Below the pieces are notes generated by a model. The model searched no databases. It was not told where the DNA came from and was given only the letters and a program-made list of their open reading frames with translations. A stretch of DNA of 33,805 nucleotides from Lachnospiraceae bacterium Zagget2. GTDB taxonomy: Bacteria > Bacillota > Clostridia > Lachnospirales > Lachnospiraceae. The translations under genes and the position numbers were made by a program. The stretch lies in NCBI GenBank assembly GCA_001941045.1, contig MSHD01000064.1:1-33805 (forward strand), read 5' to 3'. Below, piece by piece: positions 5,308 to 18,297 of this stretch; positions within the stretch are counted from its first letter, which is position 1; every line of letters begins with the position of its first letter.

Positions 5308-6405
5308 ATGAGAAGAAAAGCAGTGCTCATGCTTTTAACAGCGGCGGGATTGTTCCTTATCAATCCGGCCACGGCGCAGGCCGGCCAGCTGAGTCTTGGC
5401 CTGGACGGCGGCATCGCCTCCTCCATCAGCCTTGCAAGTAATGCCACTGAGGAAGATATAGAAGAAGCGCTCAACATTGCGGTCACGACGACCTACACCG
5501 GGCTCTGCGTCGCGCAGGTCAACGATTATGTCAATATACGCAGTGGTCCGAGCGAAGATTACGACGTTGTCGGCAAGCTTTACGCCAATTCTGTCGGCAC
5601 AGTGGAGGGCTATGAGGACGGCTGGTATCAGATCACTTCCGGCAATGTGACCGGTTATGTAAGTGCAGAATATGTCGTGATCGGCACAGAGGCAGAAGAA
5701 CTCGCGGAGGAGGTCGGCACGAGGATGGCGACCGTCACCACCGAGACGCTCCGGGTTCGCACGGAAGCCACGACAGAATCCTCCATTCTCGGACTGATTC
5801 CCGAGGGCGAGGAACTGGTCGTTACCGATGAGACGGACGATTTCGTCCAGGTCTCCATCGAAGAGGGCGACGGCTGGGTTTCCAAAGAATATGTCTCCCT
5901 GAGTACGGAATACGTCTACGCGGAATCCAAGGAGGAAGAAGAAGCCCGTCTTGCCAAGGAAGAGGCCGACAGAAAGGCAGCCCAGGCGGCAGCAGCGGCA
6001 GCGACCTCCAAGAGCTCCAACTCTTCTTCAGATGTGGTGATCGGTTCCGGCAGCGGCAGCGCCTCCGGGAACGCGGTTGTCAGCTACGCCTGCCAGTTCG
6101 TCGGAAATCCCTACGTATACGGCGGCACGAGCCTGACCAACGGAACCGATTGCTCCGGTTTCGTCATGAGCGTCTACGCCCACTTCGGCGTCAGCCTTCC
6201 TCACAGCTCCAGCGCGATGCGCAGTGTCGGATACGGCGTCAGCCTGAGCGAGATTCAACCCGGAGACATCGTCTGCTACAGCGGACACGTTGCAATCTAT
6301 GTCGGCAACAACACCATCGTCCACGCGAGCACCTCTTCGACCGGTATCAAATACACTTCGCCGGTCAACTACAAGACCGTGCTGGCGGTACGCAGAATCT
6401 TCTAA
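5308..6405 (+). CDS. Secreted SH3-domain NlpC/P60 peptidoglycan endopeptidase
   Basis: Exported cell-wall hydrolase of 365 aa that probably cuts stem peptides (gamma-D-glutamyl bonds). The order is a signal peptide (residues 1 to about 26, RRK then a hydrophobic core ending at AQA) and two bacterial SH3 wall-binding domains (about 68-123 and 138-197; motifs VNIRSGPS and LRVRTEAT). A Glu/Lys/Ala-rich charged linker (about 205-235) and a Ser/Gly linker come next. A C-terminal NlpC/P60 domain carries the nucleophile Cys282 (TDCSGF), His327 (SGHVAIYVG) and His339. The start is ATG 5308 behind AGGAGG. It is monocistronic, with its own consensus promoter and terminator. Confidence 0.96.
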   Translation: MRRKAVLMLLTAAGLFLINPATAQAGQLSLGLDGGIASSISLASNATEEDIEEALNIAVTTTYTGLCVAQVNDYVNIRSGPSEDYDVVGKLYANSVGTVEGYEDGWYQITSGNVTGYVSAEYVVIGTEAEELAEEVGTRMATVTTETLRVRTEATTESSILGLIPEGEELVVTDETDDFVQVSIEEGDGWVSKEYVSLSTEYVYAESKEEEEARLAKEEADRKAAQAAAAAATSKSSNSSSDVVIGSGSGSASGNAVVSYACQFVGNPYVYGGTSLTNGTDCSGFVMSVYAHFGVSLPHSSSAMRSVGYGVSLSEIQPGDIVCYSGHVAIYVGNNTIVHASTSSTGIKYTSPVNYKTVLAVRRIF

Positions 6406-6428
6406 ATACATACTACATAAGCATTCAG

Positions 6429-6456
6429 AGGCGATCCATAATGGGTCGCCTTTTTT
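6429..6456 (+). terminator. Terminator of the NlpC/P60 gene
   Basis: Stem AGGCGATCC / GGGTCGCCT (9 bp with one G-T wobble), five-base loop, then a run of six or more T at 6451-6456. Confidence 0.9.
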
Positions 6457-6465
6457 ATTTTCCTC

Positions 6466-6493
6466 TTGCATTTTCCACATGACGATGTATAAT
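6466..6493 (+). promoter_or_regulatory. Probable promoter of the hemolysin III-like gene
   Basis: TTGCAT (6466-6471), 16-nt spacer, TATAAT (6488-6493), about 67 nt before the start codon. Confidence 0.7.
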
Positions 6494-6560
6494 ATGAATA
6501 AATCAAGACATAGTTTTTAATACTAGATTATATAGTTCAAATTTACAAGGAGGAAATACT

Positions 6561-7214
6561 ATGACACATTCTGTAAAAGATCCCGGCAGCGCGCTTACTC
6601 ATTTCATTGGATTGATTCTGGCGGCATTTGCAGCAATCCCGCTCCTGATCACTGCCTCCCGTTACGGCGGCTCCGGCGCGGTACCTGCTCTGGCCGTCTT
6701 TGCCTGCAGCATGGTGCTGCTCTACGGGGCCAGCACAACCTACCACACTTTTGATATCTCGGAGACCGTAAACCGCGTTCTTCGCAAGATCGACCATATG
6801 ATGATCTTCATTCTGATCGCCGGCAGCTACACGCCGATCTGCCTGATCGCCCTGCGCGACACCGTCGGTATCCCGCTCCTCGCCCTTGTCTGGGGCATCG
6901 CGATCGCCGGCATTATAATTAAGGCCTTCTGGATTACCTGCCCGAAGTGGTTCTCCTCGCTGCTCTACATCGCGATGGGCTGGCTCTGTGTGCTGGCGCT
7001 GGTGCCACTCGTACAGACACTGCCTGCCGCCGCATTCTGGTGGCTGCTCGCCGGAGGGATCATCTACACCATCGGCGGCGTCATCTACGCGCTGAAGCTG
7101 CCGCTCTTCAACGCGCGGCATCAGGCCTTTGGCTCGCACGAGATCTTCCATCTGTTCGTCATGGGAGGGAGCCTGTGCCACTATATTGTGATGTTCTATA
7201 TCGCGCTGATGTAG
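6561..7214 (+). CDS. Hemolysin III / PAQR-family membrane protein (YqfA/TrhA type)
   Basis: Integral membrane protein of 217 aa with seven hydrophobic segments. It carries the family's conserved motifs: SALTHFIGL at the start, YGASTTYHTF after the second segment, KIDHMMIFILIAGSYTPI in the third, and HEIFHLFVMGGSLCH near the C-terminus. The His/Asp residues are the probable metal site. Bacterial members are linked to membrane fluidity or cytolysis, but their biochemistry is poorly settled. It starts at ATG 6561 behind AGGAGG and ends in TAG. Its last 99 nt (7116-7214) have a diverged copy at 11828-11926. Confidence 0.93.
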   Translation: MTHSVKDPGSALTHFIGLILAAFAAIPLLITASRYGGSGAVPALAVFACSMVLLYGASTTYHTFDISETVNRVLRKIDHMMIFILIAGSYTPICLIALRDTVGIPLLALVWGIAIAGIIIKAFWITCPKWFSSLLYIAMGWLCVLALVPLVQTLPAAAFWWLLAGGIIYTIGGVIYALKLPLFNARHQAFGSHEIFHLFVMGGSLCHYIVMFYIALM

Positions 7215-7307
7215 CCACAGAAGCACAGACCGCATCCAGTGCTCGAGCCCTCTGCCCCAAGCGCTGTATTTTCCAAAAAGCAACGGATAGCATGCCACTT
7301 AAATACC

Positions 7308-7336
7308 TTGAATCCCCTGATGCGCGGTGCTATAAT
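7308..7336 (+). promoter_or_regulatory. Promoter of the transporter/moeA cassette
   Basis: TTGAAT (7308-7313), 17-nt spacer, TATAAT (7331-7336). The predicted start near 7343 leaves a leader of about 112 nt that contains a terminator hairpin before the first gene. Confidence 0.8.
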
Positions 7337-7373
7337 TTTACCTGATAATAAATGCAAAGTTAAAATTGTTGTG

Positions 7374-7430
7374 CAGCTTTTGCGTAAGTCCGAACTTTTG
7401 GTTTGACTCGCGTAAAAGCTGTATTTTTTT
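7374..7430 (+). terminator. Leader terminator / possible attenuator before the transporter operon
   Basis: Arms CAGCTTTT (7374-7381) and AAAAGCTG (7414-7421) form the base of a long hairpin. It extends through GCG/CGC-type and AGTC/GACT pairing and is followed by TATTTTTTT (7422-7430). It lies downstream of the cassette promoter and only 25 nt before the first start codon, so transcripts must read through it. That placement suggests attenuation by metal, cofactor or protein. I recognise no known riboswitch class. Confidence 0.7.
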
Positions 7431-7454
7431 GAAAATCGTGAGGGAAAGAAAAGC

Positions 7455-8476
7455 ATGTCTTTATCGCGTGGACGGCTGCGGCTGATCCTTTCGGTTCTGC
7501 TGGCATTGCTCATTGTAGTATTTCTGGTATCTATGACGCAGGGAATTTATCCGCTGTCGCTAAAAGAAATTTTCATATTACCAGCTCGTTTTTGGGCTTT
7601 GATGCGGAGTACACACACAACGGCTATGTTGCTTTTATGAATGTCCGGCTCCCGCGTCTGAGTGCCTGCGTCTTTGTCGGCGCGGCGCTCTCTGCCTCCG
7701 GCGCGGCCTATCAGGGTGTGTTCCACAATCCTATGGTCTCTCCGGATCTTCTGGGCGCCTCCTCTGGCGCAGCCTTTGGGGCCTGTGCGTCCATCCTGCT
7801 CTCAGCTCCTCTGCTGGTACAGCAGGCATCGGCTTTCCTGTTCGGCCTGATGGCCGTAGCACTGACCCTGCTTATCAGCTCGATCGTTTCCAGACGGGAA
7901 AATAATACCACTACCCTTGTGCTGACCGGCATGGTCGTATCCTCCCTGTTTTCCGCTGGCGTGTCCATAACCAAGCTGCTGGCGGATACGGATAATCAGC
8001 TTGGTGAAATCACCTTCTGGCTGATGGGCAGCATGGCGGGTATCCGCCTGAAATCTTTGCCCATCCTGATCCTGCCTGTCCTGATCAGCGTTGTTCCTCT
8101 TCTGCTGTTTTCTTATCAGCTGAACGTAGTTACATTCGGCGACGAGGAGGCACGCATGATGGGCATCAATGTACAGGGCATCCGGCTGATTACCATCCTC
8201 TGCGCTACTCTGGCCACTTCCGCATCGGTCGCGGCCTGCGGCATGGTGGGCTGGATTGGACTGATCATCCCGCATCTGATGCGCTTTGTGGTCGGTCCGG
8301 ATTTTCGGTATCTGCTTCCGGCTTCCGCCCTTGGCGGCGCGATTTTCCTGATTTTGGTGGACAATATCACCCGGGTTTTTTTCACGGTGGAGGTGTCGAT
8401 CGGAATTCTGACGGCCATCATCGGCGCTCCCTTCTTCCTGTTTCTTCTGGTGAAAGGGAGGGACAGCTGGCTATGA
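7455..8476 (+). pseudogene. FecCD/BtuC-type ABC importer permease, frameshifted
   Basis: Membrane permease of a type II ABC importer for metal chelates or oxyanions. The N-terminal part (TM1, then YPLSLKEIF) is in one frame. The rest is in the -1 frame: LGFDAEYTHN, RLPRLSACVFVGAALSASGAAYQGVFHNP, GLIIPHLMRFV. Joining the frames at the T run near 7570-7573 restores a normal FecCD protein of about 340 aa, as if one T had been lost. The start is ATG 7455. The gene overlaps the ATPase start by 4 nt (ATGA). A sequencing error in the homopolymer is possible. Programmed slippage is unlikely because no canonical slippery heptamer is present. Confidence 0.85.
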
Positions 8477-9294
8477 TCTTCTCGGTGGAAAATCTGTGCT
8501 GCGGTTATCAGGGACATGCTGTGCTCTCCGACATAAGCTTTTCCGCGATGGACGGCGCGGTGCTCTGTATTCTCGGTCCAAACGGTGTGGAAAAGACGAC
8601 GCTGTTCCGGACTCTGATGGGACTGCTCCCCTGCCTTGACGGGGACATCAGAGTGGACGGCCGTTCCACTCTGAAATGGGGCGCACGGCAGCGCGCCCGT
8701 GTCATGGGCTTTGTCCCGCAGTCCCATGTGCCGCCCTTTCCCTATACAGTAAAGCAGGTCGTCGTCATGGGGCGTGCCTCACATCTTCGTATGTTTTCCG
8801 CGCCCGATGAGCAGGATTACGCGCTGGCGGACGACATCCTCCGCTCGCTCGGCATCGAAAATCTGGAAGACCGCGTCTACACCCGCATCAGCGGCGGCGA
8901 ACGCCAGATGGCGCTGATCGCCCGCGCGCTGATCCAGTCTCCTCGGATTCTGCTGATGGATGAACCCGCCGCAAATCTTGATCTTGCAAATCAGATCATG
9001 GTTCTCGAGACCGTCCGGAAACTGGCAGCCCGGGGAATCATTGTCATCATGACAACGCACACGCCCGATCATGCGTTCCTCTGCGGCACAGAGGCGCTGC
9101 TGCTGACACGGGACAAAGAGATGATCCACGGCGAACCGGAGCAGGTCATTACGGCAGAAAATATGCGTCGGGTCTATGGCGTCGATGTCTGTATCACCAC
9201 CGCCAGAAAAAATGGGAAACTGATCCGTGGCTGCGTGCCTGTCATGGACAGCCGCATGAATTCGTCAACACCGCCATTTCCGGCGATGAAATAA
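8473..9294 (+). CDS. ABC transporter ATPase of the FecE/BtuD type with defective Walker A
   Basis: Cytoplasmic ATPase partner of the preceding permease, 273 aa. Motifs in order are Walker A-like GPNGVEKTT (residues 35-43), Q-loop FVPQ, signature ISGGERQMALIARAL, Walker B LLMDEPAANLD, and an H-loop histidine in MTTHTPDH. The invariant glycine before the catalytic lysine is Glu40 (GAA at 8590-8592) instead of GGA/GGC, so ATP binding should be badly impaired (known of the P-loop). The frame is intact but function is doubtful. The C-terminal tail after about residue 245 is atypical. Translationally coupled to the permease. Confidence 0.9.
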   Translation: MIFSVENLCCGYQGHAVLSDISFSAMDGAVLCILGPNGVEKTTLFRTLMGLLPCLDGDIRVDGRSTLKWGARQRARVMGFVPQSHVPPFPYTVKQVVVMGRASHLRMFSAPDEQDYALADDILRSLGIENLEDRVYTRISGGERQMALIARALIQSPRILLMDEPAANLDLANQIMVLETVRKLAARGIIVIMTTHTPDHAFLCGTEALLLTRDKEMIHGEPEQVITAENMRRVYGVDVCITTARKNGKLIRGCVPVMDSRMNSSTPPFPAMK

Positions 9295-9318
9295 AAAAGG
9301 AAGAGAGAGTAAAAAAGA

Positions 9319-10536
9319 ATGAAAAACACGAAAAAATTCACCACACTGTTCCTGATCCCTGTGCTCTGCCTGACTTTGCTGGCAGGCTGCGGATCATCCT
9401 CCTCGGTGGAGACTTCCTCAGAGGCTGATGTAGAGTCCTCCAAAGGAACAGACGAGCCGGAAGATGAGACCGACGAAGCGACCACCGAAGATGCCGTGGA
9501 AAGCGAGGGGGAAAGCGAAGCTGTCACCGTAGCGGACCTCTAGGCTGATGCAGACGGAAATGTCACGATCACCGACATGGCCGGACGCGAAGTCACCTTC
9601 AAGGCGAACCCCACCATCTGGAATTCCAGTCCCACCGCGGAGGGATGGCTCTGCGCGGTCATTCCGGATCAGATCATCGGCTGGGCCTCGGAATTCACAG
9701 AGGATGCGCTCGCCTATTATCCCTCCTCTGTAAGCTCCCTGGAGACCATCGGCGGCAACTATGGCACCAGCACCGCCAACGAGGAAAATATCCTGGCGGT
9801 CAGCCCGGACGTCATTATCAACACCTACGACTGCTCGGAAACCGGCCTCGCGGCTACCGTCGCTTCAGCTGACGCTACCGCTGAGGAATATGGCATTCCC
9901 GTCGTCTGCCTGAGCCGCGATATCGAGGACTCCGCCGCGTGCGCTGCCAATATCGGCCTCTGGTTCGGTGCCGCGCAGAGAGGATACGAGGTGTCTGTCT
10001 ATATACAAAATCTGCTCGACCTGGTGACAGAAGCATCCGATGCTGCATCAGCGGCCGGGGATGTCCCCACCTACTATTATGCGGAGCAGGCGACCGGTCT
10101 GTTCACTGAGGCCATCGGCTCCATGCACGCGGCGGTATTTGAATACTGCGGCCTGGAAAACTGCGCCGGAGATGACATTTCCATGTCCGGCATGGGTGGC
10201 CTGGAGGAGGTCTCCCTGGAGCAGGTCATCCAGTGGGATCCGGATTACATCTTTGTCTGGCTGGACGTCGCATATCAGGACATTACCACCTCCGACGAAT
10301 GGTCCGGCATAACCGCAGTGCAGAACGGCGACGTATACCCAATCCCGCTGATGCCGCAGAACTGGTTTGACCGCTCCCCGAACAGTCTTCGCGTGCTCGG
10401 CTGCCTGTACTGCGCTTCCATCGTCTATTCTGATTACGTAAGCTATGACCTAGCAGAGACGATCAGCGACTACTTCAGCTATATGTATGGCGTGGAGCTG
10501 AGTGCAGAACAGCTGACCGCCATCTACTGTGACTGA
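9319..10536 (+). pseudogene. Substrate-binding lipoprotein of the metal/oxyanion ABC importer, interrupted by TAG
   Basis: Surface lipoprotein that would deliver ligand to the permease. It has a signal peptide with lipobox LAGC, a low-complexity Ser/Glu/Asp linker, then a PF01497-type binding domain beginning VTITDMAGREVTF and running to 10536. An in-frame TAG (9541-9543) splits the linker from the domain. The same frame resumes at once, and a CAG-to-TAG change would explain it. Full length would be about 405 aa. The downstream part could be translated only by readthrough or from a weak internal start. The ligand is not readable. The MoeA-like neighbour and the FecCD type (as in the Haemophilus MolABC system) make molybdate or tungstate a reasonable inference. 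Confidence 0.88.
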
Positions 10537-10551
10537 TGAAAGGAGAACATC

Positions 10552-11796
10552 ATGCGTCCTGATCTCAAAGATCTGATTACGAAGGAGGAGGCTCTCAGCC
10601 GGATTTTCGCCGTCTGGACGCCGGCGCGCGAGTCGGAGACTGTCCCGTTGTGCAAAGCGGCGGGACGGGTTCTCTTCGCGGATCAATACGCAAACTACAA
10701 TCTTCCGGTGGTGCGCGCCTCGTAGATGGACGGCATCGCGGTAAAATCCGCGCAGTTCACGGAAGAAATTCCCGACAGCTCCAGCTGGAAGTACGGCGAG
10801 GATTATGTCCGGGCGGACACCGGGGACGATTTCCCGGACGCGTTTGACGCGGTAATCGCCATTGAGAATGTCACGCTCCTGGAAAACGGCGGCGTCATCC
10901 TTCCTGAAAAAATCAATGCCTCCAAAGGTTTTAACGTGAAACCGCAGGGCGCGGATGTGAGGAAAGGTTCTCTCGTATGCCCCGGCGGAAGACTTCTGAG
11001 CGCCCGGGAACTGGCCGCGATCGCCATGGGCGGAATCGAAAGTGTCCCGGTGGTCCGCAGACCGCGGGTCGCTTTTCTGCCAACCGGCAGCGAACTTGTC
11101 TCCGTTGGCGCTCCACTGGAGCGCGGGCAGAATTTTGATACGAACAGCATCCTGGTCGGCCAATTGCTACGGGAGATGGGAGCCGAGCCAATCCTTCATT
11201 CCATCGTAAAAGACGAACGGGAAAGCCTGCGAGCCGCAATGAAAGAGCTGCTGCCCCTCTGTGATATCCTGCTCGTAAACGCGGGAACCTCCAAAGGAGG
11301 AGAAGACTACTGCGCCGGACTTCTCGCAGAAATCGGAGACTCCCTGTTTCATGGCGTTGCCGCCGTGCCCGGACGCCCTCTCAGCGCCGCTGTCGCGGGC
11401 GATAAGTTGATCCTCAACCTTGCAGGGCCTTCTTTCGCTGCTTACTATAATATGGACTGGGCTGTCCGCCCCCTGATCTGCAGGGCTCTAGGCGTCCCGG
11501 TTCCAGAGCGCACGCGAGTGAGAGCCGTGCTGAGTCAGCCGCTTCATCTCCCGCCTTTCTTCTCCATCATGATGTCTCTCCGGCTGAAAAAGGCGGATCA
11601 CTACGCGCCGGCGCCCTATACCGCAGAACCACTGTCCCTGCGCGGCTCCAGTGCCGTCGGCTCCAGTGCCGTCGGCTCCGCCGAGGCACTGACCGCCGAC
11701 GCGCTGTACATCTCCTCTCTCGGAGAGAAAAGTCACAACGCCGGGGAGGTCATCGAAGTGGAACTGCTTCGCAATCCGGCAGAGCTGAACGACTGA
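10552..11796 (+). pseudogene. MoeA-like molybdopterin-binding protein, interrupted by TAG
   Basis: Related to MoeA, which inserts molybdate into molybdopterin. ATG 10552 follows AAAGGAGA. The N-terminal MoeA domain runs to the conserved S-x-MDGxAV motif, where an in-frame TAG (10723-10725) replaces the x residue in RAS-TAG-MDGIAVKS. The rest is intact: the molybdopterin-binding domain (TGSELVSVG, GQNFDTNSI, NAGTSKGGEDY, VPGRPLSAAV) and a C-terminal MoeA domain. The GGVS-like and GLPG-like motifs are altered (NAGTSKGG, LAGPS), so it may be a specialised paralogue. It lies 15 nt after the binding-protein gene. A functional fragment from ATG 10726 would lack the N-terminal domain. Confidence 0.85.
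11644..11680 (+). repeat. 15-bp tandem repeat inside the moeA-like gene
   Basis: GGCTCCAGTGCCGTC occurs at 11644-11658 and 11659-11673 and begins a third time (GGCTCCG). It encodes a GSSAV repeat near the C-terminus and keeps the frame. Confidence 0.85.
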
Positions 11797-11827
11797 CATT
11801 AATCCAAACGCCACGGCGGTTCCGGAG

Positions 11828-11926
11828 CGGCATCAGTTTTCCGGCTCGCATGAGATCTTCCACCTCTTCGTCATGGGAGGGATCCTGTGCCACTATGTTG
11901 TAATGTTCTATATCGCGCTGATGTGA
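11828..11926 (+). pseudogene. 3' remnant of a second hemolysin III gene
   Basis: A 99-nt segment aligns without gaps to the last 99 nt of the hemolysin III gene (7116-7214), with 86 of 99 bases identical by hand count. It encodes HEIFHLFVMGGILCHYVVMF and a TGA stop. Many differences are silent, so it is an old paralogue or a copy from a relative rather than a fresh duplication. No start or upstream domain remains. It is followed by a terminator. Confidence 0.88.
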
Positions 11927-11935
11927 AACTGACAC

Positions 11936-11973
11936 AAAAATGGGATGCCGGAGAATCTGCGGCATCCCATTTT
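11936..11973. terminator. Bidirectional terminator
   Basis: Perfect 10-bp stem TGGGATGCCG / CGGCATCCCA (11941-11950, 11960-11969). T follow on the plus strand (11970-11973) and five T on the minus strand (11940-11936). It ends the operon that arrives from 16840 and the hemolysin III remnant. Confidence 0.9.
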
Positions 11974-12002
11974 CTGTAAGATCTTTTAATAGTTTTTGTT
12001 GA

Positions 12003-12791
12003 TCACGGACGAAGAACGCACTCTCCACCGTCGATGGAAACACGCTCCCCAAACATATGAGATGCCCAGTCGGAAGCCAGGAAAAGCAGCATGTTCGCGC
12101 ATTCCTCTGCAGTCGCGTAGCGTTTGTCAAAATAACCTGCGGTAAACTGAGCACTCTTTTCCTCTCGACTCACGCTGTCACCAAGCGCGTTATCTTCAAT
12201 GTTGCGTATCATCGCTGTATCTACACCGCCCGGATTAACGCTGTTTACATTGACGCCTTTGGGTCCCAGTTCCGCGGCAGCCGTCTTGACAATGGCCTGC
12301 ACTGCATGCTTGGACGCACAGTACACGCCCATACCGGCGCTGCCGAGAAGCGCGCCATCGGAAGATGTAATAACGATGGAGCCCTTCCCCTGCGCAACGA
12401 GATAATCTGCGCCATATTTAATCATATACATGACGCCCAGCACGTTGGTGCCAAACACCTTATCGAAATTCTCTTTGGTGAAGTTGTTCACATATTCCCA
12501 TTTCCCTTCATATCCGGCATTGGGGAAGAGCATGTCAAGTTTTCCAAAGTGTGCGTAAGCGCCCTCGGTGAATGCTTTCACATCCTCCTCATTATAGATT
12601 TGGCCAATATAGCAGTACAGGTCGTCTCCCATGTCGAGCTCGCGAATCAACGCGTCAGCCTTTTCCTGGTTACGGGCGATAAAACCAATCTTGCAGCCTT
12701 CCCTCTTTAACATTTTACACAGCTCACGGCCTATGCCGCCGGTAGCGCCAGAAACCAACGCAACCTTTCCGGTCATTTTTAAATCAATCAT
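12003..12791 (-). CDS. Short-chain dehydrogenase/reductase (SDR), last gene of the enoate-reductase operon
   Basis: NAD(P)-dependent oxidoreductase of 262 aa with a complete classical SDR set: cofactor loop GATGGIG (15-21), NAG (91-93), Asn116, Ser143/144, and Tyr157-x3-Lys161 (YCASK). It would interconvert an alcohol and a carbonyl. The substrate cannot be read. It starts at ATG 12791 behind AAAGGGGAACG; ATG 12776 (MTGKVALV) is an alternative. It lies 22 nt after the MFS gene and is fourth in the operon. Hydroxysteroid dehydrogenases, bile-acid enzymes and polyphenol-pathway reductases all belong to this fold, so the operon context is the best guide to function. Confidence 0.93.
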   Translation of the reverse strand: MIDLKMTGKVALVSGATGGIGRELCKMLKREGCKIGFIARNQEKADALIRELDMGDDLYCYIGQIYNEEDVKAFTEGAYAHFGKLDMLFPNAGYEGKWEYVNNFTKENFDKVFGTNVLGVMYMIKYGADYLVAQGKGSIVITSSDGALLGSAGMGVYCASKHAVQAIVKTAAAELGPKGVNVNSVNPGGVDTAMIRNIEDNALGDSVSREEKSAQFTAGYFDKRYATAEECANMLLFLASDWASHMFGERVSIDGGECVLRP

Positions 12792-12813
12792 AATCGTTCC
12801 CCTTTCTTCTAAA

Positions 12814-14079
12814 TTATTTCGCTTTTAACTTTTTCACCGGCGCTTTCGCAATCGCAGCGAGAATCAGCACCAGACCGACGATCGCGGCCACGGCGAAGAA
12901 CGTCCACGCGGTGACAAATCCATTGTTCATGCCAAGGAATACCGCCATAATCGGCGCGCACAGGAACTGGCCAAGGTAGACGGCCGTCATCATCGTCGCC
13001 GAGATCGCAGCGAAATCCTTCCCGCCAAAGAGCGACTGCCCGACCATACTCGGGACGCTGGCATTGAGCGGATAGCTGAGACCGGCCAGCAGCACAATAA
13101 AAACCATCAGCACAGCCGAAGTGCCGGAGCCGATCATGCACATGAGCGCCATGCACCCGACGAAGGCAACGCACAGAATCGTGGTGAATACGGACGCTCC
13201 CACTTTGGCAAAAATACTGCCCGCAACCAGCAGGAACAGCGCGGCGATGATGAGCTGCGCGGCATTCCAGTTCGCCGCCGTCGTGCTGGAGAGACCACAG
13301 GTCTGCCACCAGGTTGGCGCGTAGGAAGTAAATGCTGTGTAGGCCACGCAGACGCACAGCATGGCGACCGCGAACAGCCAGAAGGACGAGCTCTTCATGG
13401 CATCCGCCTTCGAGACGCCGATTGCTCCGATCTGCTCCGTCTTCGCACTGTTGTCAACCTTATCCCATCCGAGGGGCTTCTGCCCCATCTCCTCCGGCGT
13501 CTTCACCAGGAAGATCAGCGCAAAGCCTCCGATGATCAGCGCAAGCACTGAGATGATCCGATAGCACATCTTGAAGTCAAAATACTGAAAGAGCTGTCCG
13601 GCCAGGAACACCCACAGGGCGGCGCCGAATCCCGCACCTGAGAGGACAATTCCGGTGACCTTCTCACGCTTCTCGACGAACCACTCGGCAATCAGCGTCG
13701 AACACGCGGCGTGCGTGCCGAAGGTGATCGCAAAGGAGCAGACGAGTCCCCCGAGGTAGTAGCACACCAGCGTCATGACATTCTGTCCCGGCGTCGCGAA
13801 AGTGTACAACCAGACGTGGAGAATCACGCTCACAATCGAGATCAGCATACATTTGCGGACGCCGATCTTCGGCAATGCCCTCGCCGCAAGCATGCTCAGG
13901 AAAATATTGCCGATCGTGTTTGCGGTTCCGATATAGCCGCACATCGCCACCGACCAGCCGCTGTACTCCGCAAGACTGGCAAGGAAGATGCCGAGCGTCG
14001 TCGCCACACCCAGATTCACAAAGATAATCAGGAAGGCTCCCACAGCTGCTTTATAGCCGAAAAATGATTTGTTGTTCAT
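12814..14079 (-). CDS. MFS transporter (oxalate/formate antiporter-like group)
   Basis: Inner-membrane carrier of 421 aa with about 12 hydrophobic segments in two six-helix halves. They are separated by a hydrophilic loop around residues 195-230 (TPEEMGQKPLGWDK). The weak MFS loop motif appears as ARALPKIGVRKC. It lies 13 nt after the flavoenzyme gene and 22 nt before the last SDR, so it is co-expressed with them. It probably imports the operon's substrate or exports its product. Homologues near bile-acid and aromatic-acid enzymes suggest a small organic acid or amphipathic ligand, which is inference. Confidence 0.92.
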   Translation of the reverse strand: MNNKSFFGYKAAVGAFLIIFVNLGVATTLGIFLASLAEYSGWSVAMCGYIGTANTIGNIFLSMLAARALPKIGVRKCMLISIVSVILHVWLYTFATPGQNVMTLVCYYLGGLVCSFAITFGTHAACSTLIAEWFVEKREKVTGIVLSGAGFGAALWVFLAGQLFQYFDFKMCYRIISVLALIIGGFALIFLVKTPEEMGQKPLGWDKVDNSAKTEQIGAIGVSKADAMKSSSFWLFAVAMLCVCVAYTAFTSYAPTWWQTCGLSSTTAANWNAAQLIIAALFLLVAGSIFAKVGASVFTTILCVAFVGCMALMCMIGSGTSAVLMVFIVLLAGLSYPLNASVPSMVGQSLFGGKDFAAISATMMTAVYLGQFLCAPIMAVFLGMNNGFVTAWTFFAVAAIVGLVLILAAIAKAPVKKLKAK

Positions 14080-14092
14080 CTGTTTCTCTTCA

Positions 14093-16054
14093 TCAGTCCT
14101 GCATTGCCATCGCAGCGTAGAAGCCCTCGCGGATGGCCGTGCCGGCCTTGCCCGGTTTCACGCAGTCCCCGATGACGGTCGTCTTCGTCGGATACGCCCA
14201 CTGGATCGCCTCACCCAGCGCATTCGCGGGCTTCTGGCCAAAGGCGGAAATGATCACGTCGGCGGGGATGACCTTGTCACCTTCCGGCGTCGAGACCTTC
14301 ACGCCCTCCGCGGTGATCTCGCAGACCGTCGCGTTCGCCATCTGATGGATGCCGTACTCGTCGAACATGCGGAAGATGCTGATCGCGTTGATTGGCATGA
14401 TGTCGCCGCCGATCTGCGGCTTCATCTCCAGGATGGTGATATCGCGGTCCGGATCCGCCTGCGCGATCTCGAGAGCTGTATCACAGGCCGACAGTCCGCC
14501 GCCGCAGATGACGACTCTCTTTCCGGCCGGTACGCCCTGCTTGTGGGACTCTGTCACACCGATGACACGCGGATCGTCCATACCCGGCAGCTTCGGGCAG
14601 ATTGCCGCAGAACCGGTAGCCACAAAGATGTAATCCGCACCGGCAAGAACAGGATCTTCCGCGCCAACCTCGGTGTTCAGAACGATCTTGACGCCCAGCT
14701 TCTCAAGCTGTACGCGGTACCACTCCACGAGATCACGCATGCGTCCCTTGAAGCCTCCGGTCGCGATGTCGATGAAGGTGCCACCAATATAGCCATTCTT
14801 CTCATACAGCGTAACCGCAGCTCCGCGCTCCGCCGCGCAACGGGCAGCCTCAAGTCCTCCCGGGCCTGCGCCGATAACCACCACGTTTTTGGAGGTCTTC
14901 AGCTTCGTCACTTCCATGTAGTCTTCCAGTCCGGCAGCCGGGTTGACCGCGCAGCTGAGCTGCGTCAGGCGGCAGAAAATACGACCGATACATTCCTCAT
15001 TGCAGACCATGCAGGGACGGATATCCTCGCGACGTCCCTCTGCCAGCTTTTTCGGGAAGTACGGATCTGCGATGGACTGGCGGCCAAACTGGATGATGTC
15101 GGCGTTACCGCTCTCCAGGAGCTCTACCGCCGTCTCCATGGTATGGGTTCCGGTATTGATGATCGGATGCGTCAGATGCTTGCGCGCCTCCTCACACACA
15201 TAGGCCATGCAGGCGTCGCCCACGTAACGGGTCGGGAAGATATAATCCTGCGACTCGTATGCGCCGGCGTCAATATCGAAGGCGTCGATTCCGCACTTGT
15301 CGAGCACATCCAGCACCTTCATGGACTCCTCCAGGGTGCGGCCGCCGTTGAAACGATGATCCAGAGAAATGCGGTATGTAATCGGGAAATTCGGGCCGAC
15401 CACGCTGCGGATTGCCTGCACGATCTCCAGAGCAAAACGGCAGCGATTCTCAAAGGATCCGCCGTATTTATCCGTACGATGATTCCACACGGAGGACATA
15501 AACTGGTCGATCAGATAGCCGGCGTGCGCATGAATCTGAATTGCGTCAAAACCGCAGCGCTGTGCGAAAGTGGCAGCCGTCTTCCAGTCTTCCATCATCT
15601 GATCAATCTCTTCCAGTGTCATTTCACGGCAGATGACATTCGGATTATAGAACGCCGGATTGGGTGACGCAGAGATCGGCACCTGACCGAATTTCTCCGC
15701 CTGATCGCCCAGAACGGTATTGCGGCCCGTGCCCGGGCTGGCCTGCAGGCAGATCTTCGCGCCCCAGCGGTGCACGCGCTCCACCAGGACAGTCGTCTTC
15801 GGAATCGCATTGATATTGTCCAGCGCGATCGTCGGGGTGCCCTGCGCCAGAGCGCTGTTCAGAAACATCGCGCCAGTGTTGATCAGGCCGATGCCGCCCT
15901 TCGCGCGCTCCTCATAGTAACGCATACCTTCCTCGCTGTCCGTTCCGTCCTGCATGGGCGTAAAGGTACCCATCGGAGAAAAACTGATACGGTTCTTCAG
16001 AATCATGCCATTGATCTTGATCGGTTCCAGTAATTTATTGTAATTATAGCTCAT
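14093..16054 (-). CDS. NADH:flavin oxidoreductase / 2-enoate reductase family protein (BaiCD/FadH-like)
   Basis: Multidomain flavoenzyme of 653 aa that reduces activated C=C bonds. An old-yellow-enzyme TIM barrel (FMN; residues 1-345) has the IHAHAGYLIDQF motif at about 174-185, and NHRTDKYGGSFENR follows. A 4Fe-4S site follows the barrel (Cys348, 351, 355 and 368). Next come a FAD-binding Rossmann motif (GAGPGG, 395-400) and a second dinucleotide domain (VVICGGGLSACDTA). Relatives include 2,4-dienoyl-CoA reductase, 2-enoate reductase, the bile-acid enzymes BaiCD/BaiH and gut steroid and isoflavone reductases. Flanking SDR and MFS genes fit reduction of an enone-type or alpha,beta-unsaturated substrate. 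Specific assignment is not possible from sequence alone. Confidence 0.95.
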   Translation of the reverse strand: MSYNYNKLLEPIKINGMILKNRISFSPMGTFTPMQDGTDSEEGMRYYEERAKGGIGLINTGAMFLNSALAQGTPTIALDNINAIPKTTVLVERVHRWGAKICLQASPGTGRNTVLGDQAEKFGQVPISASPNPAFYNPNVICREMTLEEIDQMMEDWKTAATFAQRCGFDAIQIHAHAGYLIDQFMSSVWNHRTDKYGGSFENRCRFALEIVQAIRSVVGPNFPITYRISLDHRFNGGRTLEESMKVLDVLDKCGIDAFDIDAGAYESQDYIFPTRYVGDACMAYVCEEARKHLTHPIINTGTHTMETAVELLESGNADIIQFGRQSIADPYFPKKLAEGRREDIRPCMVCNEECIGRIFCRLTQLSCAVNPAAGLEDYMEVTKLKTSKNVVVIGAGPGGLEAARCAAERGAAVTLYEKNGYIGGTFIDIATGGFKGRMRDLVEWYRVQLEKLGVKIVLNTEVGAEDPVLAGADYIFVATGSAAICPKLPGMDDPRVIGVTESHKQGVPAGKRVVICGGGLSACDTALEIAQADPDRDITILEMKPQIGGDIMPINAISIFRMFDEYGIHQMANATVCEITAEGVKVSTPEGDKVIPADVIISAFGQKPANALGEAIQWAYPTKTTVIGDCVKPGKAGTAIREGFYAAMAMQD

Positions 16055-16084
16055 GTCTGAATTTGTCCTTTCTTCTGTTCTTTC

Positions 16085-16840
16085 TTAGATGGCCGTCCAG
16101 CCGCCGTCGCAGGTCAGAATCGTGCCTGTTACATAGGAAGACTCCTTCGCTGCAAGGAAGACGATCGAAGAATCCAGCTCGCCCTCTCTTCCCGGACGGC
16201 ACATCGGTGTGCGGTTCTCAATAAATGCGCCCATCGCTTCCATCGCCTCCGGTCCGTTTGCCTCAGATGCGAAGAATCCCGGGCAGAGCGCGTTGACATT
16301 GACGCCCTTCGTCGCCCACTCAGTCGCCGCCTGGCGGGTCATATTGATCACGCCGCCCTTTGCAGACGCGTATGCGATCACCGGAAGCTCCTTGAGGCCG
16401 CCCTTGCCAAGGATCGAAGCGATGTTAATCACACGGCCATAGCCCTTCTCCAGCATGATCTTTCCGAAATACTTCATGCAGTAATAAGCGCCGTCCAGAT
16501 CAAGGGAGAGCACCTTGCGCCACTCCTCGTTCGGGAGCTCCTCCAGCGGAATGCAGGTGCCGCCGCCGGCGCTGTTCACGAGGATATCCACCGTTCCAAG
16601 TCCCTTCACAACCGCGTCAACCGCTGCCTGGATCTCCTCCACTTTGGTCACGTCACACTTCACCGGGAGACATTTCACACCGAGTGCCCGGATCTCCTCC
16701 GCCACGCCGTCGAGCTTCTCCTTGCGTCTTGCCAGAATCGCCACATCGGCTCCCTGCCTCGCCAGAGCCAGCGCGAACTGCCGTCCAAGACCCGCGGATG
16801 CACCCGTCACAACTGCAACATTACCTGTCAAATCAAACAT
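16085..16840 (-). CDS. Short-chain dehydrogenase/reductase (SDR), first gene of the operon
   Basis: NAD(P)-dependent oxidoreductase of 251 aa. Its cofactor loop is TGASAGLG (12-19), followed by an ARRKEK basic patch after the second strand that favours NADP(H). NSAG is at 89-92, Ser142, and Tyr157-x3-Lys161 (YASAK). The usual structural Asn of the tetrad region reads Asp (LDLDGAYY), a variant seen in gluconate/3-oxoacyl-type SDRs. It starts at ATG 16840 behind AAAGGAGGAAAAAGCG, so it is the first gene after the divergent regulatory region and lies 30 nt before the flavoenzyme. The substrate is unknown. Confidence 0.93.
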   Translation of the reverse strand: MFDLTGNVAVVTGASAGLGRQFALALARQGADVAILARRKEKLDGVAEEIRALGVKCLPVKCDVTKVEEIQAAVDAVVKGLGTVDILVNSAGGGTCIPLEELPNEEWRKVLSLDLDGAYYCMKYFGKIMLEKGYGRVINIASILGKGGLKELPVIAYASAKGGVINMTRQAATEWATKGVNVNALCPGFFASEANGPEAMEAMGAFIENRTPMCRPGREGELDSSIVFLAAKESSYVTGTILTCDGGWTAI

Positions 16841-16879
16841 CGCTTTTTCCTCCTTTTAATGGTAATTATTTTACTTTAT

Positions 16880-16885
16880 TTTATA
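16880..16885 (-). promoter_or_regulatory. Candidate -10 box of the SDR/flavoenzyme operon
   Basis: Minus-strand TATAAA about 40 nt before ATG 16840. No good -35 is present at the right distance, which would fit a promoter that needs an activator such as the divergent PucR-type protein. Confidence 0.45.
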
Positions 16886-16937
16886 GCAAACTTCTCTCCT
16901 TTTCATCGTAGAAATTCCAAATATTTTTTTTATATTT

Positions 16938-16958
16938 TTGTGCATTTGCACAATGCAA
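16938..16958. promoter_or_regulatory. Overlapping palindromes, probable operator of the PucR-type regulator
   Basis: TTGTGCA-TT-TGCACAA (16938-16953) is a perfect inverted repeat. It overlaps a second one, TTGCA-CAA-TGCAA (16946-16958). It lies centrally in the 209-nt gap between the divergent operon and regulator, upstream of both promoters. Confidence 0.7.
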
Positions 16959-16971
16959 TTTAAAAAATCAA

Positions 16972-17000
16972 TTTACGGTTTACAATATTATGTTTATAAT
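16972..17000 (+). promoter_or_regulatory. Promoter of the PucR-type regulator
   Basis: TTTACG (16972-16977), 17-nt spacer, TATAAT (16995-17000). Transcription from about 17006 excludes the upstream ATG at 16990 and supports the start at 17050. Confidence 0.7.
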
Positions 17001-17049
17001 AGGATTGACAGTTCAGGCCATGAAAAGAACAGGGGAACCGAGGTGCTCT

Positions 17050-18297
17050 ATGAAAAAGGAAGTAGATTTTCTGAAATTATATGAAGAACTCTATCAAGTT
17101 CTGCCAACCAGGAACTTTCAGGAACTCATGAATGTCTGTTACCAGACGCTCGGGATTCCGATTCTGATCGTCGATATTATGTACAATGTCCTTGGCATCG
17201 CGCCGGAGACCCCCACCGGCGATCCGCTCTGGGACTATCTTCTGGAGCATCGGGGTTACGATTCCGAGCAGGTAGCCGTCATGATTCATGACGGCATCAT
17301 TCAGTCTGTAGACGACTATGAGGCTCCCTATGTAGTCGACTGGGGTTCGCAAAAGGACTATCCAAAGCTCCAGGAAATTGTACGAATCAACAACATTGCC
17401 GAAGCCTATGTCACGCTGAACTGTGCCTCTGTGGAGATCACGCCGGATCTTATGAAGGCCATGGACATTATCCAGTCCATCTGCGCCTTTTTCCTGAGCG
17501 GCAACGAGTCCAGGGGAAATGCTCTTCACACATTTCAAAAGGTCTTTATTACGGAATTATTCAGTGGAAGAATACGGAGCAAAGAACAGCTTGCCGGCTA
17601 TTTCAATGACATGAACGAACGATATGACCCGCCTTACATTGTCACTGCTGCCATCATCCCTCACAAAAAGGGCCACCAGCTTCTTTCGGTTATCCACAAA
17701 TCTTCCCAGACACTGTGTTCCAGACAGCTGATGCTGATTCAGGATAATGTGCTTTATACACTGTACTACCAGGAAAACCCCTTTGAGGAAAGCAAGGGCT
17801 TCTTCTCGGCCCTGTCCGATCTGATCAGCCGCTTCGGCGCCAGGGTCGGAGTCAGCAATGCTTTCACTGATCTGCTGGATATCACCATCTACGAACAACA
17901 GGCAGAGACTGCTGCAGTGATCGCAGAACAACTCCATGCCCCCAAATGCATCTGTTTTTACCGGGATTATTACCTTCCGGCGCTTCTGCTCCCTCAGGTA
18001 CGCAGGATTCCAAAAGAAAGCTACATCCCCGGTGTCCTTACTGAAATTCAGAAATATGATGCGGAGTATATGACCGAATTCTTTCCGACGCTGAAAAGCT
18101 ATCTCCGCAATATGAAAAGCACAGCAGCTACTGCGAAGGAACTGCATATCCACCGCAATACGCTGCTGTACCGGATCAATCAGATGGAAGAGTTGTTTCA
18201 TATCTCTTTTAATGATTACGAAACGCTGCTCCTCCTTATGAACTGTTTCTATATGCTGGATCTGGAAGCAAGCTGCTATCCGAACAGAGAAAAATAA
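17050..18297 (+). CDS. PucR/CdaR-family transcriptional regulator
   Basis: DNA-binding regulator of 415 aa. A long N-terminal sensory part runs to about residue 330. The C-terminal PucR/CdaR helix-turn-helix has the typical form MKSTAATAKELHIHRNTLLYRI, then ETLLLLMNCFYM. I chose ATG 17050 (MKKEVDFLKL), preceded by GAGGTG; the frame is open from 16990 but that ATG lies inside the promoter. It is divergent from the SDR/flavoenzyme/MFS operon with palindromes in the shared gap, so it probably activates that operon when the substrate is present (inference). Family members typically respond to small catabolic ligands. Confidence 0.9.
   Translation: MKKEVDFLKLYEELYQVLPTRNFQELMNVCYQTLGIPILIVDIMYNVLGIAPETPTGDPLWDYLLEHRGYDSEQVAVMIHDGIIQSVDDYEAPYVVDWGSQKDYPKLQEIVRINNIAEAYVTLNCASVEITPDLMKAMDIIQSICAFFLSGNESRGNALHTFQKVFITELFSGRIRSKEQLAGYFNDMNERYDPPYIVTAAIIPHKKGHQLLSVIHKSSQTLCSRQLMLIQDNVLYTLYYQENPFEESKGFFSALSDLISRFGARVGVSNAFTDLLDITIYEQQAETAAVIAEQLHAPKCICFYRDYYLPALLLPQVRRIPKESYIPGVLTEIQKYDAEYMTEFFPTLKSYLRNMKSTAATAKELHIHRNTLLYRINQMEELFHISFNDYETLLLLMNCFYMLDLEASCYPNREK

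Follow-up and report, generated by a model that had tools for sequence, protein, structure and literature searches.

We propose, with confidence falling just short of even, that five genes of Lachnospiraceae bacterium Zagget2 form a self-contained, substrate-inducible metabolic cassette, a cascade that would pair NADH-dependent C=C reduction with two carbonyl/alcohol steps. The genes lie in a 33,805-nucleotide (nt) stretch of contig MSHD01000064.1 (the window, whose positions serve as coordinates throughout). They encode two short-chain dehydrogenases/reductases (SDR1 and SDR2), an Fe-S flavoenzyme, a major facilitator superfamily (MFS) carrier, and a divergent PucR-type regulator. The proposal is built on gene content, recurring linkage, the joint presence or absence of the five genes, a palindrome with its promoter spacing, and the fold and cofactor motifs of the flavoenzyme.

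Organization of the cassette

The predicted operon has the order SDR1-flavoenzyme-MFS-SDR2 and runs from 16840 to 12003, with intergenic gaps of 30, 13, and 22 nt in the list of open reading frames (ORFs). All four genes are on the minus strand: SDR1 (16085-16840; PF13561, 187 bits), the flavoenzyme (14093-16054), the MFS carrier (12814-14079; PF07690, 99.5 bits), and SDR2 (12003-12791; PF13561, 169.6 bits). The regulator gene lies on the plus strand (17050-18297; PF13556 HTH_30, 58.6 bits, cut-off 27). Pfam assigned adh_short/adh_short_C2 to both SDRs, MFS_1 to the carrier, Oxidored_FMN and Pyr_redox_2 to the flavoenzyme, and PucR HTH_30 to the regulator. The operon is followed by an intrinsic terminator (approximately 11930-11972, minus strand), detected by folding against shuffled sequences. 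The stretch 11925-12010 of the minus strand folded at -26.8 kcal/mol (z -4.07), a value equaled by none of 200 shuffles, and contains a hairpin and a T run. The consensus scan did not list this terminator, and its loop apparently exceeds the 8-nt maximum that the scan allows. ORF coordinates, Pfam matches, and folding bear out an earlier note on this DNA, which had described the five genes, their order and gaps, and a strong terminator.

The regulator ORF is open from 16990. A start at 17050 (residue 21) appears more likely, because alignments with seven full-length PucR orthologs from other genera start at residue 14-20 in five cases (L019, L020, L027, L038, and L040; L numbers denote loci), GAGGTG lies upstream of the ATG at 17050, and a predicted promoter (16972-17000) overlaps the ATG at 16990. 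In the remaining two, L021 and L034, the match starts at residue 3-4. The HTH_30 domain and orientation support the divergent PucR/CdaR-type regulator of the earlier note; its start needs probable revision.

Recurrence of the module in other genomes

With each species represented by one genome, the scan yielded 30 flavoenzyme loci. Four of them (L012, L013, L025, and L032) belong to the window's species group and encode flavoenzymes 98-99% identical to the window's. Outside this group, SDR1 was found in the cluster in 15 of 26 loci, with 61-90% identity in L014-L021, L023, L024, L027, L030, L034, and L040 and 46% in L038. It directly adjoins the flavoenzyme in all but one of these 15; in L016, it lies two genes away. 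No SDR1 was found beside the flavoenzyme (50-72% identity) in the other 11: L022, L026, L028, L029, L031, L033, L035-L037, L039, and L041. When only flavoenzymes of at least about 60% identity were considered, with L040 admitted by the identity of its first flavoenzyme piece, SDR1 was present in 14 of 16 loci; in the two others, L022 and L041, the contig ends inside the flavoenzyme gene. The window-type MFS gene occurred in 11 of 14 loci (none in L016, L021, and L027). SDR2 also occurred in 11 of 14, being absent from L024 and L040, while the L015 sequence is cut short; in L014, L017, and L030, SDR2 comes before SDR1. PucR orthologs, 41-49% identical, adjoin the module in L019, L020, L021, L027, L034, L038, and L040. 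Carriers of the module include Schaedlerella and the type strain Lactonifactor longoviformis DSM 17459, a named strain in which testing would be practical. The set is therefore kept in other genera. No published account of the five-gene module was recognized in the part of the literature searched, from which most subscription papers and bioRxiv were excluded.

Searches of larger genome sets gave its frequency. SDR1 was matched at E <= 1e-75 in 17 of 391 class genomes, and only the window's copy and that of genome G364, which adjoins a flavoenzyme, exceeded 60% identity. At E <= 1e-70, 4 of 295 order genomes had SDR1, the window's included; the other three copies were 49-52% identical. The flavoenzyme was matched at E <= 1e-150 in 9 of 391 class and 6 of 200 family genomes, both counts including the window's. 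Beyond the window's, a flavoenzyme more than 60% identical was found once in the class (66%) and once in the family (64%). In the genus, 5 of 17 genomes carry the flavoenzyme, again with the window's. G790, G856, and G867 are the same genomes as L019, L032, and L013, respectively, and are not independent counts.

Comparison with relatives that have no module narrowed the functional unit to five genes. In G856 (L130) and G867 (L132), trhA stands on one side of the five genes and an M23 peptidase gene on the other. These two flanking genes are neighbors, 46-158 nt apart, in all four module-free genomes of the same genus that were retrieved (L133-L136). Because the two genes adjoin in module-free genomes and flank the module elsewhere, the five genes come or go together. 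We take the unit of gain or loss, in either direction, to be these five genes. In L131, with the flavoenzyme on another contig, PucR adjoins the M23 gene and the contig then ends.

SDR1 of the window is 85-90% identical to the Lachnospiraceae types. Recent transfer of SDR1 was considered as a cause and rejected: in seven Lachnospiraceae-type loci, third-base identity at fourfold sites was 32-48% for SDR1, as low as that of the flavoenzyme (26-46%). High protein identity at such low fourfold-site identity indicates strong constraint on SDR1. In the flavoenzyme tree, the window groups with Oscillospiraceae types (support 100/100), and a Lachnospiraceae grouping was rejected by the approximately unbiased (AU) test (p-AU 0.0002). 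SDR1 is most similar to Lachnospiraceae types, and its placement with Oscillospiraceae was not formally rejected (p-AU 0.062). These results suggest that parts of the module may have been reassorted, giving it a mosaic origin.

Several loci depart from the common form. L038 of Lachnospiraceae (5722-9932) has the exact palindrome described below, PucR (41%), SDR1 (46%), and the flavoenzyme (51%); no MFS or SDR2 gene was found in it, and it may represent the module in minimal form. In L040 of Enterococcus raffinosus (8001-11190), the flavoenzyme and MFS genes are each frame-broken and SDR2 was not found; this module may be decaying, or the assembly may contain errors. The module is followed by a Zn-alcohol dehydrogenase gene in L024 and by a CitMHS carrier gene in L016.

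A distinct clade of Fe-S flavoenzymes

The flavoenzyme belongs to the Fe-S branch of the Old Yellow Enzyme (OYE) superfamily, of the 2,4-dienoyl-CoA reductase type. It has an N-terminal flavin mononucleotide (FMN) barrel (Oxidored_FMN, PF00724, 228.8 bits), four 4Fe-4S cysteines (C348, C351, C355, and C368) that are invariant in 33 of 33 aligned rows, and a C-terminal flavin adenine dinucleotide (FAD)/NAD(P) domain in a full-length fold. The list of structure matches held eight full-length chains, the rest being single-domain OYEs, and the C-terminal part was judged by those eight. The second Rossmann motif is intact and carries Glu543, and we read it as NADH-binding. The domains and the four-Cys motif agree with the FMN, 4Fe-4S, and FAD enzyme expected in the earlier note.

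Among solved relatives, the highest profile scores were those of 2-naphthoyl-CoA reductase (549 bits) and 2,4-dienoyl-CoA reductase (499), followed by amine oxidase (361) and trimethylamine dehydrogenase (348). Identity to 2-naphthoyl-CoA reductase (PDB 6qkg/6qkr) and to the Escherichia coli 2,4-dienoyl-CoA reductase (1ps9) is about 30%. These two enzymes have the active-site motifs CAIVGY and MGSEGY, respectively, in contrast to HAHAGY in the window, and by their names both act on CoA thioesters, for which the cassette has no gene. The amine enzymes raise the possibility of an amine dehydrogenase or N-demethylase-like flavoenzyme, of the trimethylamine/histamine dehydrogenase kind, whose released aldehyde or ketone is processed by the SDRs. 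We regard this as unlikely. The profile scores of this group, which includes HisD (6l6j), are below those of the reductases; the intact second Rossmann motif is that of an NAD(P)H-fed enzyme; and none of the five genes encodes an electron-transfer flavoprotein. In wild-type trimethylamine dehydrogenase, Cys30 holds FMN covalently. The window enzyme has Gly29 at the aligned position and lacks this mark of the trimethylamine dehydrogenase type.

Curated models also left the flavoenzyme, which we favor as a C=C reductase, outside the three nearest families. Its best curated score was 407 bits for the long form of bilirubin reductase (BilR, NF045599), against a cut-off of 750, followed by 382.3 of 793 for the mycofactocin-system OYE 2 (TIGR03997) and 380.6 of 825 for BaiCD (NF041087). 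In the tree, it falls in a 26-row clade (support 100/100) that excludes L046, the sole BaiCD row over the cut-off, to which it is 29% identical. The earlier note named a place inside a characterized clade as refuting its proposal; for these three families, scores and tree give no such place. BaiCD resembles the window enzyme in domain order and cofactor motifs; however, it keeps an HxxH motif that the window enzyme has lost, and no other bai genes are among the five. On the BaiCD contig L064, no second large flavoenzyme able to serve as BaiH was seen by eye.

We then set 24 clade rows against 9 references, which include the paralog L003 from the window's own genome. The reference set is small, since L046 was the only row of the BaiCD search to pass the curated threshold (1 of 196 genomes) and no bilirubin reductase row passed its own (0 of 116); daidzein reductase, BaiH, the steroid 5-beta-reductase (ci2350), and flavone/flavanone reductases are not part of the comparison. 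All 24 clade rows and none of the references have an inserted Thr109, Asn112, His177, His233, Asp262, Tyr271, and Phe273. The same 24 versus 0 split was found for Ala/Ser178, where all nine references have His, and for Asp525, where all nine have Glu. Asp183, Asp260, and Asp270 are each present in 24 clade rows versus one reference, and Glu267 in 24 versus two. The HxxH segment of this enzyme family faces FMN and the substrate. Because this segment is altered, we read the clade as having a rebuilt, polar active site. Such a branch may handle a compound not yet tied to these enzymes.

These data also bear on the idea that the cassette belongs to a known kind of module for reducing steroids, bile acids, or isoflavones and has lost its sequence resemblance; we judge this the least probable of the alternatives considered. 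PMC11574389 places BaiCD, BaiH, BilR, and daidzein reductase in one flavoenzyme class, shared by the window enzyme, and PMC12238238 reports gut steroid reductases, including 5-beta-reductases, that are of the OYE family and separate from the BaiCD clade. In the equol cluster, daidzein reductase, a C=C-reducing Fe-S flavoenzyme, is followed by two more reductions, as described in PMC11574389; set beside the cassette by description only, the likeness is an Fe-S C=C reductase with further reductions. The products of such enzymes there include host-relevant gut compounds, namely secondary bile acids, urobilinogen, and equol. The module carrier L. longoviformis would fit as well. This species converts lignans. 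Against a known module of this kind stand the BaiCD score (381 of 825 bits), the 29% identity to the BaiCD row, and the polar clade motif. The same points leave a steroid or bile-acid identity unsupported, though not disproved. The earlier note had named a steroid, bile acid, isoflavone, or cinnamate-type acid as examples of a substrate. Nothing in the analysis favors bile acids, isoflavones, or cinnamates, and the clade-specific polar residues His177, His233, Asp260, Asp262, and Asp270 argue weakly against steroids.

No common theme was found among the neighbors of flavoenzymes without an adjoining SDR1, some contexts being judged by eye; L033, for example, has a Gfo/Idh gene. In two distant loci, L016 (9871-10443) and L031 (9968-10474), the gene immediately after that of the flavoenzyme encodes DUF3237, and in L089 a DUF3237 look-alike, recognized by eye, precedes the flavoenzyme gene. 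In L041 (1185-8927), a flavoenzyme gene (64% identical) follows two ADP-ribosylglycohydrolase genes and branched-chain-type ATP-binding cassette (ABC) permease genes.

SDRs and carrier

The nearest curated model of SDR1 was gluconate 5-dehydrogenase (PRK08213, 249 of 279 bits), and its Ser-Tyr-Lys residues are present. The best solved matches were 3-oxoacyl-acyl carrier protein reductase and gluconate 5-dehydrogenase for SDR1, and levodione reductase (122 bits) for SDR2, which also matched borneol dehydrogenase. Neither SDR ends beta-2 with an acidic residue. On this basis, we read both as NADP(H)-preferring and hence reductive. This reading, and the fact that the nearest solved relatives of the flavoenzyme are reductases, make it improbable that the cassette is mainly oxidative, with the flavoenzyme desaturating or aromatizing a ring ketone supplied by an SDR. 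The altered His motif could fit such a changed reaction, and BaiCD is reported in one oxidative and one reductive pathway step in PMC11574389.

SDRs usually carry a catalytic Asn in their tetrad. At this position, Asp was found in all 17 SDR1 rows of the module, including L038 and two rows of the window's species, and Asn in the order-level relatives L043-L045 (0 of 3 with Asp). The change was rejected as a mark of the module: seven of eight unlinked SDR1 relatives (51-56% identity) also have Asp, after a ninth row, L141, was left out as a module copy. Asp therefore marks a wider SDR group.

The MFS carrier scored 83.3 of 400 bits with the bile-salt model NF038246 and 73 of 320 with the lactate carrier NF049980. 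It is at most distantly like these carriers, being far below both cut-offs.

A conserved palindrome in the divergent promoter

The divergent promoter contains the palindrome TTGTGCAnnTGCACAA (TTGTGCA-TT-TGCACAA) at 16938-16953, which we propose as the operator of the PucR-type protein. With as many as two mismatches allowed, it is the window's sole match; 0.07 were expected, and 7 of 100 shuffles had one. Conservation was compared in 12 loci with an orthologous PucR, three of them from the window's species group, L015 being left out for too little sequence. The palindrome is kept in all of these, including the nine loci outside the species group, weakly in one. All 14 arm letters are found in 7 of the 12 loci, 13 in L018, L027, and L034, 12 in L040, and 11 in L023. 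The L023 score was reached by 6 of 300 shuffles and those of the other loci by none. No palindrome was found before SDR1 in L024, L014, L017, L030, and L016, nor before SDR2 or the flavoenzyme where those lead in L017, L030, and L016. The regulators of palindrome-free loci are non-orthologous (19-24%) or have HTH_30 alone (L016), and that of L014 is off the contig.

The promoter-like site of the operon (16878-16906, minus strand) has a TAAAAT -10 and a poor -35 (ATGAAA), and was assigned by the consensus scan, which found 9 sites against 5.0 expected, and by the spacing in orthologous loci. Distances of 40-65 nt from the palindrome were scanned for -10-like hexamers with A as the second and T as the sixth letter. 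In 10 of 12 loci, by raw count, a hexamer with 4-6 matching letters of 6 stands at exactly 54 nt. The exceptions are L032 (53 nt) and L040 (no good hexamer). In the window, a second TAAAAT, 64 nt from the palindrome, scores equally. The distance from the palindrome to SDR1 varies from 94 to 138 nt. A constant spacing to the -10 with a varying leader length fits an activator that touches the polymerase, and the PucR-type protein would be such an activator, acting at the palindrome.

The exact palindrome occurs once per genome in five genomes (the window's and those of L019, L020, L021, and L038), and in each of the L027 and L034 genomes the single copy, at the module, differs by one letter. Away from the module, sites with one mismatch number one for the window's genome, one for that of L019, and four for that of L020; a reversed control pattern had no match in seven genomes. 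A wider regulon was considered and rejected. The one-mismatch site in the window's own genome adjoins an aspS-like gene and that of L. longoviformis lies inside a sensor-kinase-like ORF, and both look like chance matches. The palindrome, conserved and single in each genome, offers a direct route to the inducer and hence the substrate.

A single operator per genome, together with the strong constraint on SDR1, suggests one specific compound. It is thus doubtful that this is a detoxification cassette, in which reactive unsaturated aldehydes or ketones act as inducers, the three enzymes reduce them, and the carrier exports the products. OYEs do reduce many electrophiles, and the MFS gene is dispensable, as its absence from L016, L021, and L027 shows. 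However, the carrier is nearest to carboxylate carriers.

Proposed function

In the cascade that we favor, the PucR-type protein would bind the palindrome, centered about 74 nt before the operon start site, and, with the compound present, would activate the promoter with the poor -35, as its conserved geometry suggests. The carrier may move a small carboxylate-like compound. SDR1 would interconvert a hydroxyl and a ketone adjoining the double bond, as its fold and motifs allow. In the flavoenzyme, whose cofactor motifs are in place, electrons would pass from NADH through FAD, 4Fe-4S, and FMN to the activated C=C bond, and SDR2, by its fold, could act on the resulting or a second carbonyl. We infer the direction and order of these reactions, the type of substrate, and the activator role from such features. 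Given the carrier likeness, the solved matches of the SDRs, and the polar motif, our low-confidence guess for the substrate is a small oxygenated, perhaps cyclic, carboxylate.

A bolder possibility, which we advance only tentatively, is that the clade with GTGRN, HxHAGYLxDQF, RIxxDH, and DxDxxxYExxDYxF represents a new class of Fe-S flavoenzyme by function, acting on a polar compound unlike the known substrates of the family, and that the cassette, together with its single-site operator, provides gut anaerobes with a complete and horizontally assorted pathway for this compound.

Other features of the window

The window has an additional 4.7 kb segment between trhA and SDR2 that is not present in L130 and L132. 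It is flanked by a 98-nt direct repeat (7115-7212 and 11827-11924; 89% identical) from the 3' end of trhA, and its genes, named by eye, are ABC-transporter-like and MoeA-like. This segment appears to be a second, window-specific insertion or duplication. A 532-residue open frame (14069-15667, plus strand) lies antisense to the flavoenzyme gene. Similar antisense ORFs overlie its orthologs in several loci, and we take the frame for an artifact of codon bias.

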